Source: a virus. From it: a stretch of DNA of 33,364 nucleotides. A model generated the notes under the pieces. The model had not been told where the DNA came from. It searched no databases and saw nothing but the letters and a program-made list of their open reading frames with translations. Positions 290-33,364 of the stretch are shown piece after piece (position 1 is the stretch's first letter; each line of letters begins with the position of its first letter). The position numbers were made by a program, and so were the translations under genes. The stretch lies in IMG/VR virus record IMGVR_UViG_3300046787_000615, positions 1-33,364 of that record, one strand, 5' to 3'.

Positions 290-721
290 ATGTTAGATTT
301 AACTAAAGCTCAAGATCAAAATGACGTGTTACCAGCCGGAACGTATGCTTCGGTAATTACTGGAGCAGAAACTAAGACAACTAGCTCTGGTACTGGAGAA
401 TATATTAAGGTTGAATTTTCAATCGTAACTCATGGGTATGTTAATAGAAAAATTTGGGCGCAATTTAATATTAAAAATGATAACGCTCAAGCTGTTTCTA
501 TTGGCATGAGCCAACTTAAAGGTTTGGCAAAAGCTATAGGTTTTTCTGAAGCTGCTATGGCAAGTTTTGCTCCAGCTATGCTAGCAGGAAAAGAAGTTGG
601 TATTAAAACTAAAATTAAAAATGATCCAACTTATGGCGAAAAAGCTGAAGTAGCTAGTTTTGTAGCTCTTAATAAATTGCCGGCTCATGCGGCTGTTAAA
701 ACAGACGATATTGGCTTTTAA
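290..721 (+). CDS. DUF669-family protein, likely ssDNA-binding
   Basis: A 143-residue protein with an N-terminal stretch (residues 1-40, including LPAGTYASVITGAE) and a beta-rich core typical of phage DUF669 proteins. These are regularly found directly downstream of a Sak4/AAA_24 ATPase and are thought to act as single-stranded DNA-binding partners in phage replication and recombination. Here it begins one base after that ATPase stops and is preceded by AAAGGGA. Its stop overlaps the helicase start by one base (TAATG), so ATPase, DUF669 protein and helicase form a coupled trio. The family call comes from sequence pattern and context; the ssDNA-binding role is an inference from the family and neighbours. 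Confidence 0.75.
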   Translation: MLDLTKAQDQNDVLPAGTYASVITGAETKTTSSGTGEYIKVEFSIVTHGYVNRKIWAQFNIKNDNAQAVSIGMSQLKGLAKAIGFSEAAMASFAPAMLAGKEVGIKTKIKNDPTYGEKAEVASFVALNKLPAHAAVKTDDIGF

Positions 722-2151
722 TGGAATTATTCCCTTACCAAAAAGAGTGCATTGATGCTTTACGAATAGCAGCTTCTCAAGGTGAGAAAAGGCTACTAGT
801 AAAAGCACCTTGCTCGTTTGGTAAAACCATAGTGTTTTGTCAAATTGCAGTAAATGCCAGGGAAAAGGGAAGAAAAGTTTTAATAGTTATGGATTCAGTG
901 TTCCTAGTGGAACAGACTGTAATGAAGTTGCGTAATTTTACTAATGACGTTGGTATTTATTGCGCAACACTTAACAAAAAAGAAATGAGCACAATAACAG
1001 TTTCCACTATACAAAGTATTAAGGAAAATATCTTTGACATTGTTTTGGTTGATGAATGTCATAGTGGACAAAGTAGATGGCAGGAATTTTTAAATGATAT
1101 GCAAATTGTCATTGGATTTACTGCCACTCCTTATGATGCCAAAGGTAGAGCTATCTATGGCTCTGATAGATTCTTTCCAGGCTTAACTTACTCTATGAGT
1201 GTTAATAAATTATTAGAACTTAATAGAATTACTCCTATGATTTATGGAACCGAAAAAGATGAAACAAAGATAGATTTAAGCAGCGTTAAAATACAAGCTG
1301 GAGATTACAAAGAATCGGATCTTCAAAAAGTATATGAAATAGAAAAAGATAAAGTTGTTATGCAACTTGAGGATATGCTGCTTAGAGTAGCCAACAGAAA
1401 AAAAGTTATCATAATGACTACTGGAATAGATCATGCTGACTTTATAGAGTCAAGGCTGTCTAATTCTTTGGCATATCATAGTAAAATTGACAATAAGAGA
1501 AGATCGGAAATATTAAAAGAGTTTGAGCATGGTAGTATTAAATTTCTAATTGGTGTTATGGCTATCTATAAGGGATTAGATATAACTTCCGTGGACTGTA
1601 TTGCGAATATGAGACCAACCAGGTCAAAAAATTTCTGGGTTCAGCTCTGCGGTCGCGGAGTCAGAAAACATCCAGGTAAGGTCAATTGTTTAATGCTTGA
1701 TTATGGTCAAACAGTAGAGAACCTAGGCTTTTATGAAGATATAGAAGAGATTAATAAAAAAGTAACTAAGGGCTTAGCACCTGAGTTTTTCCCTAAAAAA
1801 TGCCCAAGTTGCTTAGCTCTTCTAAAGCCGCAAATTAGAATATGTGGTTGCGGGCATGTTTTTACAGTTATAACTACTGATAAGTTAGAAAAAGAAGCGT
1901 TCCAAAGAGCTAAAATTGAAAACTATAAACATGAAATAGAGAGTGTAGTAGTTAATCATGAGTTTGTTTCTAAAAAAGGCTTCAAGATGAAAACCATAAG
2001 AGTAGGCCTAGTTGACCATGTTGACCTTATGTTTTTCTATCCTGAGTTTAAAAGAGGTGAGTTTTTTTCTATAATAAAAGAGCTATCCCCTGGAAAGAAG
2101 TTAATTTGGGGATATAAAGAAAACTACCCGCAAATTAGAGGTATAGAGTGA
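721..2151 (+). CDS. SF2 DEAD/DEAH-type helicase with C-terminal zinc ribbon
   Basis: A 476-residue superfamily 2 helicase. Visible motifs in order: Q-motif-like FPYQ (4-7), Walker A APCSFGKT (29-36), Walker B DECH (111-114), motif III TATP (134-137), and motif VI Q308-x2-GRGVR (to 315). After the helicase core there is a CPSC (361-364) and CGCG (375-378) pair that looks like a zinc ribbon, followed by an uncharacterised roughly 90-residue tail. ATP-driven duplex unwinding or remodelling in phage replication or recombination is the likely job, supported by its place after the ATPase and DUF669 genes. No nuclease domain is seen. It starts within the preceding stop codon and ends in a GTGA overlap with the next gene. 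Confidence 0.9.
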   Translation: MELFPYQKECIDALRIAASQGEKRLLVKAPCSFGKTIVFCQIAVNAREKGRKVLIVMDSVFLVEQTVMKLRNFTNDVGIYCATLNKKEMSTITVSTIQSIKENIFDIVLVDECHSGQSRWQEFLNDMQIVIGFTATPYDAKGRAIYGSDRFFPGLTYSMSVNKLLELNRITPMIYGTEKDETKIDLSSVKIQAGDYKESDLQKVYEIEKDKVVMQLEDMLLRVANRKKVIIMTTGIDHADFIESRLSNSLAYHSKIDNKRRSEILKEFEHGSIKFLIGVMAIYKGLDITSVDCIANMRPTRSKNFWVQLCGRGVRKHPGKVNCLMLDYGQTVENLGFYEDIEEINKKVTKGLAPEFFPKKCPSCLALLKPQIRICGCGHVFTVITTDKLEKEAFQRAKIENYKHEIESVVVNHEFVSKKGFKMKTIRVGLVDHVDLMFFYPEFKRGEFFSIIKELSPGKKLIWGYKENYPQIRGIE

Positions 2152-3417: not shown

Positions 3418-3675
3418 ATGAAATGGATTTGCGTTAACTGCAAAGCGATTAATCCCGAGTTTAGTTATAGTTGTCATAATTGTGGGAAGAATAAAAAGGT
3501 GGATGAGATGGAAATAAGACTAAAGAACAAATTAAAAATGATAATTGTGTTTATAATATTCGCTCCGTTCTTTTGCATTGGACAAGTAGCGTCCTTGGTA
3601 TACTTTCACTTTTCCATGGGTTATTTTCAAATGGATAAAAAGTTAGAAGAATTATATAAGAATGGGTTATTATAA
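3418..3675 (+). CDS. Zinc-ribbon membrane protein, 85 aa
   Basis: An N-terminal treble CxxC zinc ribbon (C5, C8, C19, C22; sequence WICVNCKAINPEFSYSCHNC) is joined by a basic linker to one hydrophobic segment at roughly residues 40-66 and a short charged tail. A cytoplasmic zinc ribbon anchored in the inner membrane is the likely topology. It starts two bases after the previous stop and overlaps the next gene by 14 bases. Partner and function are unknown. Confidence 0.7.
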   Translation: MKWICVNCKAINPEFSYSCHNCGKNKKVDEMEIRLKNKLKMIIVFIIFAPFFCIGQVASLVYFHFSMGYFQMDKKLEELYKNGLL

Positions 3676-3955
3676 AAAAGGTAGATTTGTGGGAAGTGAA
3701 AAGACGATATTTGATAAGTATAAAGAATACGTAGAAAGACCATATTTAGAACTTGGTTTTTTAAGTGACAATGGAGCTGATGAGTTTTACTGTTTTGAAG
3801 CTGGTTATAATTTAGCAAAAGCAGAAGAGAAAGAGAAGATTGAGAGGATGAAAAACTTTATTGAATGGATTTCTAAATCTGAAAAATTGGCAACTAGCAA
3901 AGAATTTATTTTTGCTTGTGGATTAGCAAATGAAATACTTAAGGAGATTGAATGA
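3662..3955 (+). CDS. Hypothetical protein, 97 aa
   Basis: A 97-residue, mostly helical protein. The first third is basic and aromatic (MGYYKKGRF), and the middle contains FYCFEAGYNLAKAEEKEKIE, an organisation seen in many small phage proteins of unknown role. ATG 3662 lies inside the tail of the zinc-ribbon gene. Its end overlaps the next start (ATGA). No named family is recognised. Confidence 0.65.
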   Translation: MGYYKKGRFVGSEKTIFDKYKEYVERPYLELGFLSDNGADEFYCFEAGYNLAKAEEKEKIERMKNFIEWISKSEKLATSKEFIFACGLANEILKEIE

Positions 3956-4146
3956 AAACTAAAAAACCAAGGAAACCTAGGAATCTGCCTTATGGAATAT
4001 ATAAAGTGAAAGCAGTTATAGAGCATAATAATGATGTCGCAATAGCTAATGGATTATACTCTATCAGGCTTGATGTATACGATGTAAGACGCATCTCAAA
4101 ATTCTTAAATCAATACATTAAGTGGATAGAGAGCAAAAAAGAATAA
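3952..4146 (+). CDS. Small basic protein, 64 aa
   Basis: It starts in an ATGA overlap with the previous stop and is preceded by AAGGAG. The N-terminus is strongly basic and Pro-rich (MKTKKPRKPRNLPYG), then a mixed alpha/beta core and a Lys-rich end. The basic tail suggests nucleic-acid or ribosome contact, but this is only inference. It is the last gene before the only sizeable gap in the early operon. Confidence 0.65.
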   Translation: MKTKKPRKPRNLPYGIYKVKAVIEHNNDVAIANGLYSIRLDVYDVRRISKFLNQYIKWIESKKE

Positions 4147-28882: not shown

Positions 28883-28898
28883 CAATCTAGATTTTGGG

Positions 28899-28923
28899 AA
28901 GGGAGTTTTTATGCTCCCTTTTT
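28899..28923 (+). terminator. Rightward intrinsic terminator
   Basis: AAGGGAG (28899-28905), eight-base loop, CTCCCTT (28914-28920), and a T-run to 28923. The U-run is on the rightward strand only; the leftward strand reads CCCAAAA after the stem. It lies between the leftward late genes and the rightward RusA gene. Confidence 0.75.
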
Positions 28924-30045: not shown

Positions 30046-30074
30046 AGTTTACACTACTTCCTGATTCCTGTCAA
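30046..30074 (-). promoter_or_regulatory. Leftward sigma70-type promoter
   Basis: Perfect -35 TTGACA (30074-30069), a 17-base spacer and -10 TAAACT (30051-30046) on the leftward strand. Transcription would start near 30039, about 32 bases before the 54-codon gene. A TTTACAC repeat (30048-30054) overlaps the -10, so a protein binding those repeats could repress it. Confidence 0.75.
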
Positions 30075-30385
30075 TAGCCTTGGTTAGCTCTAATGGAGAA
30101 AAAACAAGATTACACCATTGCACCACTTATATACACATAAATGACCATAAATGACTAAAAGTCTAAAAAGATATATATATATTAGTGTAAAGTATGTATT
30201 TAAAGAATAGAGCGTAGCGATACCTTTTATTTCAAGTACTTAGAAAGAGTAAGTTCGCATATTACCTATTTTATATTACATCTTACCCCCCCATGCTTTA
30301 CACTTTTACACCCTGAATTTTGAACTTTTGGTTTTGCATTGCGTTAATAAAAGTTTAAAAAAATAAGTGCAAAACAGCTTTACAC
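30048..30385. repeat. Cluster of TTTACAC iteron-like repeats
   Basis: TTTACAC occurs at 30048-30054, 30297-30303, 30305-30311 and 30379-30385, and as GTGTAAA at 30185-30191; a one-mismatch ATTACAC lies at 30109-30115. Two copies are only 8 bases apart. Most extend to TTTACACT. The AT-rich interval 30008-30411 has no plausible gene; it also holds a run of alternating AT at 30171-30181 and a C7 run (30286-30292). Either an operator array or replication iterons would fit. Confidence 0.6.
30137..30155. repeat. Tandem 9-bp repeat, 10-bp period
   Basis: ATAAATGAC occurs at 30137-30145 and 30147-30155, one DNA turn apart, next to the alternating-AT tract. This is the pattern of side-by-side protein-binding sites. 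Confidence 0.5.
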
Positions 30386-30411: not shown

Positions 30412-32496
30412 CTAGATAATGGAATAAATTCTAGCTGTTCCCGATAATTTTTCTTGAATCAATCCTGATTCTTTTAGGTCACTTAAATACTCATCTCTTT
30501 GTTTTTTTGGCATGTATTTAGAGAATTTTCTATTGATATCGGTTTTAGTTACCTGTTCTTTGCTGGCGATAAACTCTAAAATTTTCTGCATATGAGCTTT
30601 TCTATGCCCTTCAAACATCTTATTGCTAATTAGTATTTCCGCGTTATTGGTGTTTGCCTTAACTAGCTCAAGAGCAAAACGTAGATCTTTTTTGCTAATG
30701 ACTAGCGTCGTAGTATCCGGGTTATTAAACGCTGCACTTATGATAGCATATTTAATAAACATCACTTCCATTCTATTAACCATTGCTATGACCGGGCTAT
30801 TGCTGTCGACTTTAAATTTAATGTCCCTAATTTCGCCCACAATTTCTTTAAATAATGATTCTGTGTCTGCTTTAAGTGTTGCGCTAGGTATATTAAAAGG
30901 TCTTAAATGGGTGTTTTCTTCTAAATCTATGTTATCTGACTTTGGGCTCCACAATGAATCATTTTTAACTTTTCTCCACATTTCTAAAAAAGCCGTAAAT
31001 TTTTCAGGCATAGGCAAACTTTCGCGGTCCCTATCTTTCATGTTTTTTAAATCATAGTAAATATCCCCCCGACCAAAAAACCCTCGATTAATCAAGTTAG
31101 ACGTAAATGATTTTTCAAAGGCATCAAACGTAGTCCCCATAAGTAAGTTAACGTATGGAGCAAAGCATCCTCCGATGTTCCCTTTAGTGTTTTTAGTATC
31201 TTTAGCATGAGAAACATTTTTACCTAAAAATGCCCTTCCTGTACTTGTATATAGTTCTGACAATGTTGCGCTTATAGCTTCGCCTAGCCCGGTTTTATCG
31301 TTTATCTTTTCAAACAAGCTAGATGCCTCATCTAGCACCCCAATTTGAACTCTGCACTGTTTAAGAGTTTGAGTAAGTCCATTAACACTAGTAATCGAAC
31401 TTGGACCCAATAAATTAATTCCAAGAGGTGAAGAAATTAATAAGTCTTTTATAAAATTAAAGCTTGAAGTCTTTCCGGCACCCGAGCCGCCAACTACTAA
31501 AGTGTAGAGGTTAGGAGTGATACCTTTGAACTGAACTTTATTCCCTAAGATAGTGGAAATTGCCATCATGGCAGTTGGAAAAGCAAAATGAGTACGATCT
31601 TGAGATGAATTAGCAATAATATGTTCAAACATTTCTTGGGCTATCCCACTAAGCTTGGGAAGTTTCATTTTAGTAAGTTGAGCCTCTTTGACTAAAGTTA
31701 TTTTAACATCTTCTTTTACATTAACTTTATCTATAGACCCTACTTTTAAATTTCTCTGTATCCCTTCCAGGATAAAAGCTAAAACATTTGCTTCTTTACT
31801 ATTAGTTTTCCATTTTCTCGAAGGACATAGGAAGTAACTAACATCGGGATTAATAGCGTCGTCGTAATCTAGTAAATTTTTTGCAATAGTATCAGGCGTA
31901 TCATTAGAGTGTAAGGCTGCTACTAACATCTCCGACAATTTAGAGTGTGAGCCATGATTGCATCTAGTTCCGTCCGATTGAGAAATAGAGGTACTTGGGT
32001 TTGTTTGTCCTTGGAATAATTCTAGAAATTCTTTACTTAAAGTGGGTAGATCTTTTAAATCAAAGCCTAATAAATCATCTACTGTTAACCAGGAATAAGC
32101 TGTGTGAGTTTCTGGGTGTATTGAAGGCGGCAATACTGTTTGATTTCCATTAGACAATAACTCAATACCTAAATCATGTCTCTTCCTGGAAATCTCTCCG
32201 TTGTATTTAAAAAATCTTGTTTCGCCTTTTTTGCCTTTTTTCACTACTGGAGATAATGGGCATAATTTTAAACCGCTATCTTTGTCTATATCAATTGCGA
32301 TAACGCCGCTAATTTCGCCTAATAGCAACCCAATGTTTGAGCATGGATTTTCATCTATTATCTTTTCGTAATTTTTATAAATTATTTTATTGGTCCAATC
32401 TTTTAACACTGGTCTTTTGTCATTCCTAATTAGCGGAGTAACAATTAAGCCTCTTTCAAAATACTTTGGCGCATAATTTTCGTAAATTCTTTCCAT
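30412..32496 (-). CDS. Prim-Pol primase fused to DUF3987 helicase-like ATPase, 694 aa
   Basis: The N-terminal domain (about 1-165) is a bifunctional primase-polymerase: KRPVLKDW (27-34), NIGLLLG (54-60), the metal-binding D69-x-D71 in IAIDID, and LPPSIHP (122-128). The C-terminal part (about 275-640) is DUF3987-like with Walker A GGSGAGKT (336-343) and Walker B VLDE (D389-E390). It probably primes and unwinds DNA at phage forks. No separate DNA polymerase gene is visible, so host Pol III presumably elongates. The ribosome binding site AAAAGGA lies a little far from ATG 32496. The leader lies opposite the rightward RNA at 32551. Confidence 0.88.
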   Translation of the reverse strand: MERIYENYAPKYFERGLIVTPLIRNDKRPVLKDWTNKIIYKNYEKIIDENPCSNIGLLLGEISGVIAIDIDKDSGLKLCPLSPVVKKGKKGETRFFKYNGEISRKRHDLGIELLSNGNQTVLPPSIHPETHTAYSWLTVDDLLGFDLKDLPTLSKEFLELFQGQTNPSTSISQSDGTRCNHGSHSKLSEMLVAALHSNDTPDTIAKNLLDYDDAINPDVSYFLCPSRKWKTNSKEANVLAFILEGIQRNLKVGSIDKVNVKEDVKITLVKEAQLTKMKLPKLSGIAQEMFEHIIANSSQDRTHFAFPTAMMAISTILGNKVQFKGITPNLYTLVVGGSGAGKTSSFNFIKDLLISSPLGINLLGPSSITSVNGLTQTLKQCRVQIGVLDEASSLFEKINDKTGLGEAISATLSELYTSTGRAFLGKNVSHAKDTKNTKGNIGGCFAPYVNLLMGTTFDAFEKSFTSNLINRGFFGRGDIYYDLKNMKDRDRESLPMPEKFTAFLEMWRKVKNDSLWSPKSDNIDLEENTHLRPFNIPSATLKADTESLFKEIVGEIRDIKFKVDSNSPVIAMVNRMEVMFIKYAIISAAFNNPDTTTLVISKKDLRFALELVKANTNNAEILISNKMFEGHRKAHMQKILEFIASKEQVTKTDINRKFSKYMPKKQRDEYLSDLKESGLIQEKLSGTARIYSII

Positions 32497-32514
32497 GAAG
32501 ATTCATTCCTTTTA

Positions 32515-32544
32515 TTGACAAATGTTGGTGAATTAAATTATTAT
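32515..32544 (+). promoter_or_regulatory. Rightward promoter of the structured RNA
   Basis: Perfect -35 TTGACA (32515-32520), an 18-base spacer and -10 TATTAT (32539-32544, five of six matches). The start is predicted at 32551, exactly the first base of the 5' stem-loop of the RNA that follows. The promoter lies in the 5' leader of the divergent primase gene. Confidence 0.7.
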
Positions 32545-32550
32545 TTGGAC

Positions 32551-32658
32551 AAGCATAATTTAATTTTTTCACGCAAGACTTTATTAAAATGCTTATTGAT
32601 TTCTTTTGTAAAGAAGAAAATCTTTGGTGTGGGCCGGATTATTTCGGCCCATTTTTTT
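32551..32658 (+). ncRNA. Structured non-coding RNA, about 108 nt, three stem-loops
   Basis: Between its own promoter and an intrinsic terminator, the RNA can fold into three successive hairpins. Stem 1: 32551-32556 and 32559-32564 pair with 32583-32594 (12 bp with a two-base bulge, 18-base loop). Stem 2: 32598-32607 with 32612-32622 (10 bp including one U-G pair, one bulged A, and a GUAA loop of GNRA type). Stem 3: the terminator 32630-32651. There is no coding frame with a ribosome binding site. A size near 100 bases, three hairpins and a position opposite a replication gene's leader recall plasmid antisense RNAs such as CopA and RNAI; that role is inference. Confidence 0.6.
32630..32658 (+). 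terminator. Rightward intrinsic terminator
   Basis: TGGGCCG (32630-32636), eight-base loop, CGGCCCA (32645-32651), then seven T (32652-32658). This GC-rich stem in very AT-rich surroundings with a T7 tail is a textbook terminator. It separates the short RNA from the early promoter 70 bases downstream. Confidence 0.92.
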
Positions 32659-32679
32659 GACGCAAATGTCTAAATATTT

Positions 32680-32709
32680 TTATCCACAAATAATTTAAAA
32701 TTTTCCACA
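32680..32709. other. Candidate replication origin: paired DnaA-box-like sites
   Basis: TTATCCACA (32680-32688) is a perfect DnaA box (consensus TTATNCACA), and TTTTCCACA (32701-32709) is one mismatch away. They are in the same orientation and exactly 21 bp apart, two helical turns, so DnaA would bind on one face. They lie in a very AT-rich stretch (32667-32727) between the divergent replication genes. Host DnaA-dependent initiation is inferred. Confidence 0.5.
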
Positions 32710-32729
32710 AAACTTTTTTCTAAATCTGT

Positions 32730-32758
32730 TTGACAAGTAGCTATCGACCTACTACATT
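32730..32758 (+). promoter_or_regulatory. Early promoter of the Sak4-helicase operon
   Basis: Perfect -35 TTGACA (32730-32735), 17-base spacer and -10 TACATT (32753-32758). The start near 32765 gives a leader of about 36 bases before ATG 32801, which has AAAAGGAAAG in front. This is the strongest sigma70-type candidate in the window and reads across the circular joint into the early block. Confidence 0.8.
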
Positions 32759-32800
32759 TTTCCAACCAAAGAGATTCTAAAATTTACAAAAGGAAAGAAA

Positions 32801-33364
32801 ATGTTTACGACATCCGGCGCGCTATCACAAAACTCCCTATCTATTTTAGTTTATGGCAAATCAGGAATTGGAAAAACTACTTTAGCAGCAACTACTCCAG
32901 ACACAACTAAGACATGTATTTTGTCTCTAGAAAATGGCTTACGTAGTATCGCAGATAAGACTATCTCAGTTTATGACGTTACTGTAGATGCTAATGGTAA
33001 AGAACTTGATAGAGCAGTAAGACATGATAAATTTCTACACGCTCTTAAATTATTTCAAACAGAAGAAATAAAAGCAAAATACGACTACCTTGTAATTGAT
33101 AGCTTAACAGAAATTGCGCAAAACCTTGTCGAGAAGTTAAAGCTAACTTATCCAAATAAAAGTGATGCTATGAAGCTATGGGGAGATTATAACGATAATA
33201 TGCTAAACATCGTTAAATCTATTCGTGATTTAAAATCATATAACATCATTGTTCTTGCTTTAGAAAAAACCGAAGTAGATGAATTTCAAAGAAGATTTGT
33301 AGGCGTTGATTGTGCCGGTAAAATTGCTGCACGTTTGCCCGCTTTTTTTGATGAAGTTTTTTAC
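32801..33364 (+). CDS. Sak4-like (AAA_24) recombination ATPase, N-terminal part
   Basis: The gene runs off the contig end and continues at base 1 to 289; the joined protein has 241 residues. It is a RecA-fold P-loop ATPase of the phage Sak4/AAA_24 type: Walker A GKSGIGKT (19-26), a Walker B strand in YDYLVIDSLTE, and a sensor-like IIVLALEKTE. Such proteins pair with DUF669 or SSB-like proteins in single-strand annealing and recombination-linked replication. AAAAGGAAAG precedes ATG 32801, and a strong promoter lies 43 bases further up. It is first in the early operon. Confidence 0.85.
   Translation, partial: MFTTSGALSQNSLSILVYGKSGIGKTTLAATTPDTTKTCILSLENGLRSIADKTISVYDVTVDANGKELDRAVRHDKFLHALKLFQTEEIKAKYDYLVIDSLTEIAQNLVEKLKLTYPNKSDAMKLWGDYNDNMLNIVKSIRDLKSYNIIVLALEKTEVDEFQRRFVGVDCAGKIAARLPAFFDEVFY
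33238..33364. repeat. Terminal direct repeat, copy 2 (circular overlap)
   Basis: Identical to bases 1-127; one copy should be removed when the genome is circularised. See the first copy for interpretation. Confidence 0.95.

Follow-up and report, generated by a model that had tools for sequence, protein, structure and literature searches.

The 304-bp gap between the divergent primase and sak4 genes of a small tailed phage of the P22-portal type probably encodes a phage base-pairing small RNA (sRNA) that represses translation of sak4 (probability about 0.7). Within the window – the whole 33,364-base stretch of DNA analysed – this gap contains a promoter-terminator unit for a structured RNA whose middle segment is complementary to the leader of the downstream, same-strand sak4 gene. 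The complementarity is conserved in one relative, where the two sides of the pairing covary.

The predicted transcription unit and its setting

The first and last 127 bases of the window record are identical (an exact direct terminal repeat, 1-127 = 33238-33364), and we therefore treat it as a closed 33,237-bp genome, though IMG/VR classes it as linear despite the repeat. We found no integrase domain in the phage, no repressor-like protein among the small ORFs inspected in the window, no tRNA or tmRNA in a search of the window, and no DNA-level relatives among annotated phages. Idiomarinaceae phage 1N2-2 and Alteromonas phage PB15 have the same primase/sak4 divergence; in these phages the gap is filled by an annotated transcriptional regulator (Cro family in PB15). 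Coordinates of the locus and its neighbouring genes are collected below.

Table 1. Features of the primase-sak4 region (window coordinates).
Feature	Position	Strand	Remarks
Prim-Pol/helicase (primase) gene	30412..32496	-	divergent from sak4
sRNA promoter TTGACA-18-TATTAT	32515..32544	+	sigma-70-like, 11/12 matches
Predicted small RNA, ~108 nt	32551..32658	+	three hairpins; fold z -4.6
Hairpin 1	32551..32594	+	12-bp bulged 5' stem; fold prediction
Hairpin 2	middle of RNA		10-bp stem, GUAA loop, plus one bulge
b' segment UUUCUUUUGUAAA	32600..32612	+	hairpin 2 5' arm and loop; anti-Shine-Dalgarno; partner 32783-32795
AGAA	32615..32618	+	four additional paired bases; partner 32775-32778
a' segment UCUUUGGU	32621..32628	+	linker, mostly unpaired, predicted toehold; partner 32765-32772
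Intrinsic terminator	32629..32658	+	GC-rich; 10-bp stem, 6 GC, T7
Predicted sak4 promoter TTGACA-17-TACATT	32730..32758	+	10/12; predicted start ~32765
sRNA target in sak4 leader (Shine-Dalgarno AAAAGGAAA)	32765..32796	+	predicted 5' end through Shine-Dalgarno
sak4-like recombinase gene (AAA_24)	32801..33364	+	from start; runs on past terminal repeat to ~289
DUF669 / SSB-like protein gene	290-721	+	presumed sak4 operon
DEAD helicase gene	721-2151	+	presumed sak4 operon

We defined a transcription unit as a promoter with at least 10 of 12 matches followed, within 50-200 nt, by a terminator stem of at least 8 bp. The window contains one unit of this size, and 1 of 100 dinucleotide-shuffled genomes has one (mean 0.01). 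The promoter–three-hairpin–terminator unit for the predicted RNA is real: the promoter, the 12-bp bulged stem, the 10-bp stem with a GUAA loop and the GC-rich terminator with T7, all described in an earlier note made from the sequence alone, lie exactly where that note had placed them. Folding 32551-32658 reproduced the three hairpins with a minimum free energy (MFE) of -30.0 kcal/mol, and none of 200 shuffles was equally stable (z = -4.6). The accompanying statement that no coding frame fits needs amending, as a 23-codon ATG frame exists (32589-32660); it has no Shine-Dalgarno sequence, and its stop lies past the predicted end of the RNA.

The plus strand upstream of the locus is without a gene, so the layout implies that the terminator must serve a transcript begun within the primase-sak4 gap. 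We infer that the unit is transcribed, in which case RNA polymerase would start at about 32551 and stop at the terminator at about 32658. Hairpin 1 is probably protective.

We observed a second orphan terminator-like hairpin on the plus strand at 28898-28922, ~110 nt upstream of rusA (29032). No plus-strand gene precedes it, its fold z is -2.9, and its promoter is weak only; it is possibly another small RNA or a leader.

Complementarity to the sak4 leader and its covariation

A repeat search identified 32600-32628 as complementary to 32765-32795, which is the sak4 leader including its Shine-Dalgarno sequence. Because the GC-rich terminator swamps a duplex scan with the whole RNA, we used the middle segment alone. 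Hairpin 2 and the linker that follows it form 25 pairs with the same-strand sak4 leader at -26.5 kcal/mol, and no shuffle of either partner (0 of 2000) paired as strongly. Among 61 ORF starts in the window, sak4 was the best partner (next, -18.3 kcal/mol).

To our TerL bait we owe the one relative that shares the whole replication module, IMGVR_UViG_3300020201_000006 (G001, loci L074/L075). Its proteins are 78% (Sak4), 55% (DUF669), 59-61% (helicase) and 28-31% (primase) identical to those of the window. Immediately ahead of its sak4 and in the same orientation, we identified a promoter (TTGACG-18-TG-TAAGAT) and a three-hairpin RNA (L074 minus 1500-1376, z -4.9) followed by a terminator, so that promoter, hairpins, terminator and sak4 have the same order and strand in both phages. 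The middle segment is identical at 19 of 21 bases; hairpin 1 differs in sequence, and the relative also has a 5' hairpin. The relative's sRNA/sak4 duplex (-25.3 kcal/mol; 0 of 2000 shuffles) ranked first of 72 ORF starts, with the next at -15.7 kcal/mol.

The margin of sak4 over other ORF starts is about 8.6 kcal/mol in the window and 9.6 kcal/mol in the relative. When the cost of opening both RNAs is included, net energies are -18.6 (window) and -14.6 (relative) kcal/mol, and sak4 remains first in both genomes. Since ranking among ORF starts controls for A/G-richness, chance or A/G-rich ribosome sites are a poor explanation for the pairing.

Comparison of the two alleles separates the paired region into two parts. 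The b' segment is identical in both phages. The a' segment is UCUUUGGU in the window and AACAAAGU in the relative, and each pairs with the 5' end of its own leader: in the 8-bp a'/a helix, both partners differ at six of the eight positions, yet all eight pairs are intact. In calculated pairings of each a' with each a, cognate combinations gave -13.0 and -8.7 kcal/mol and non-cognate ones -1.6 and -1.8 kcal/mol.

These features suggest how the RNA might act. The first target base coincides with the predicted start of sak4 mRNA (32765), and in the free RNA a' is largely unpaired (0.66 in the window, 0.62 in the relative) and therefore able to make first contact. The a' linker after hairpin 2 would be the toehold that engages the mRNA at its extreme 5' end; hairpin 2 would then open, and the b' arm would pair across the Shine-Dalgarno sequence and block ribosome binding. 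The predicted openness of the Shine-Dalgarno sequence falls upon dimer formation from 0.66 to 0.09 in the window and from 0.50 to 0.02 in the relative; the inferred sign of the effect is repression. Sak4 would be lowered, possibly together with the SSB-like protein and the downstream helicase by polarity, an effect suggested by the operon layout and general knowledge.

Alternative readings of the locus

The same complementarity could belong to a cis-acting leader. Transcripts from the 32515/32551 promoter would read through, their middle segment would fold onto the sak4 ribosome-binding site (RBS), combining attenuation with sequestration, and the short RNA would be a mere termination by-product. 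The long-range pairing is indeed part of the MFE structure of the full read-through transcript in both phages (Shine-Dalgarno openness 0.09 and 0.02), and the relative has only ~50 nt from terminator to sak4 ATG, with no clear sigma-70-like promoter found between them. In the window, however, there is a separate 10/12 promoter whose predicted start is the first target base; moreover, a strong terminator should leave mostly the short product, and an RBS always sequestered behind it would yield little expression. We consider this reading improbable. Because sak4 in the window has its own predicted promoter starting at the first target base, action of the sRNA on a separate mRNA is favoured there; as no sak4 promoter is visible in the relative, its sak4 mRNA may be a read-through product, and cis pairing is also possible.

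The earlier note had proposed an antisense-type control RNA, similar to RNAI or CopA, that acts on the leader of the divergent primase mRNA beside the origin. Its general idea survives in that a replication/recombination gene appears, from sequence, to be controlled, but it applies to another target in another geometry: the complementarity that is both strong and conserved involves the sak4 leader, downstream on the same strand, instead of the primase leader. A cis-antisense role against primase could draw on the position of the RNA, which is encoded opposite primase and 55 nt ahead of that gene's start, and on trans pairing with the primase RBS, which ranks second in the window at a net -13.2 kcal/mol (only weakly significant, at 9/1000 and 56/1000 shuffles). 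Against it, a minus-strand promoter scan of 32497-32800 found no primase promoter, which leaves overlap of the two RNAs unproven, and the relative has another gene, a 100-aa ORF, opposite its RNA, with primase further off and sRNA pairing with both at chance level. We regard this role as very improbable.

The primase leader in the window (32494-32530, minus strand) contains CACCAA and AAAAGGAA, a two-part layout as in the sak4 target. Primase could possibly be a second, weak sRNA target, with both operons co-regulated, which we offer as a lead only. The relative's 100-aa ORF (L074 1554-1856, plus strand), located between RNA and primase, has a zinc-ribbon-like CPFC motif, and the window is without a counterpart.

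The placement beside an origin was likewise not established. The DnaA-like boxes at 32680 and 32701 are near chance (19 of 100 shuffled genomes have as many as the window) and have no counterpart at the corresponding position of the relative, and we dropped the origin model for these reasons. Just 3' of the primase gene, at 30048-30385, five of the eight genomic TTTACAC copies are clustered together with TTGCAC-like repeats; this cluster is a candidate iteron-like origin or operator.

Finally, the inverted copies (32600-32623 / 32772-32795), 148 nt apart, could form a DNA operator to which a phage protein binds, the RNA features then being incidental – a reading in keeping with the Cro-like or other regulator gene found at this spot in phages of the same layout and with the inverted leader similarity of divergent genes at other Sak4 loci (L141 and L166, below), but one we rate as highly improbable given that the sites diverge between the two phages yet stay complementary within each, that conservation around one copy extends to promoter, fold z-scores and terminator, and that the window's small ORFs yielded no repressor-like protein.

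Distribution, known counterparts and implications

The RNA-pairing unit is known from two genomes only, the window and its relative. A scan of IMG/VR with the motif TTTCTTTTGTAAANNAGAAAA gave seven matches, of which only the relative has the motif in this context; the others are unrelated loci without a nearby sak4, mostly within coding frames. No third close relative of Sak4 turned up in viral scans with Sak4 and helicase or in a single genome scan. We checked 75 Sak4 loci for upstream-RBS complementarity, and the arrangement was present in the window and the relative alone. Matches of the L141 type and of L166 were set aside as inverted leader similarities between divergent genes. In these loci, near-palindromic leaders common to sak4 and the divergent gene (L141 ~3900-3990, L166 ~3420-3540) form long inverted repeats over both RBSs, in an arrangement that differs from the window's; they may represent an operator or a leader duplication. 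Because the distant Sak4 operons examined lack the arrangement, it seems to have arisen locally, within the window's phage group.

Rfam gave no match in the window at the gathering cut-off, and relaxing the threshold to E = 10 added no convincing family. A Yfr19 match (E = 0.004), seen in the relative only and absent in the window, was far under its gathering score, and L20 leader and sroB matches were at chance level. A literature search found no paper joining Sak4, phage and small RNA.

The closest parallel is C4, the antisense RNA of phages P1 and P7, where b' partly occludes the RBS, a' pairs upstream for specificity, and few a' differences separate related phages (PMC5320573; for the distribution of C4, see PMC2864571). 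Like C4, the window RNA is encoded just upstream of its target on the same strand and has two short segments, b' at the RBS and a' upstream, with a' differing between related phages. Unlike C4, which is processed by RNase P from a longer transcript, it has its own predicted promoter and intrinsic terminator, places a' within a linker and b' within the arm of a hairpin, and is directed at a Sak4-like AAA_24 gene rather than the icd/ant antirepressor operon, in a phage in which no integrase domain was found. C4 shares a transcript with its target; for the RNA described here, a separate sak4 promoter is predicted in the window and none is clear in the relative. The C4 covariance model (RF01695) matched neither window nor relative, at the gathering score or up to E = 10. 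Given this result, the promoter- and terminator-set ends, the other segment positions and the different target, we conclude that the RNA works like C4 but is not a C4 family member.

Other systems share less. The CI RNA of satellite phage P4 is likewise small and encoded in a leader, and it too pairs with the transcript that follows on its own strand; it is RNase P-processed and acts by premature transcription termination, whereas the pairing in the window lies over the first gene's RBS. In the type I antitoxin systems IstR-1/tisB and OhsC/shoB, too, an independent sRNA gene sits beside a gene whose mRNA it matches over a limited and imperfect stretch. Their targets are small toxins; the window target is a recombination enzyme in the same orientation as the sRNA. 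Lambda OOP, ColE1 RNAI and R1 CopA are short, structured, base-pairing RNAs near replication genes, but they lie opposite their targets with full complementarity, and the window RNA is on its target's own strand with partial complementarity.

Since each copy of the genome would produce the sRNA, a rise in copy number could be met by a ceiling on recombination-operon expression; like polarity on the helicase, such feedback is suggested by operon layout and general knowledge. More tentatively, the RNA may have arisen as an inverted duplicate of its target leader and now act as a type-specific switch that silences only its own recombination operon, an idea we think unlikely. If true, a fixed anti-Shine-Dalgarno part would be combined with a fast-evolving a'/a lock-and-key, and phages without a recognised repressor or integrase would gain feedback on copy number and possibly specificity in superinfection. 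The window and relative are natural alleles that make a specificity test possible without designed mutations. A predicted phage target that covariation supports is available for only a few phage RNAs, and the pairing described here connects a so far uncharacterised RNA with the regulation of a Sak4 recombination/replication operon.
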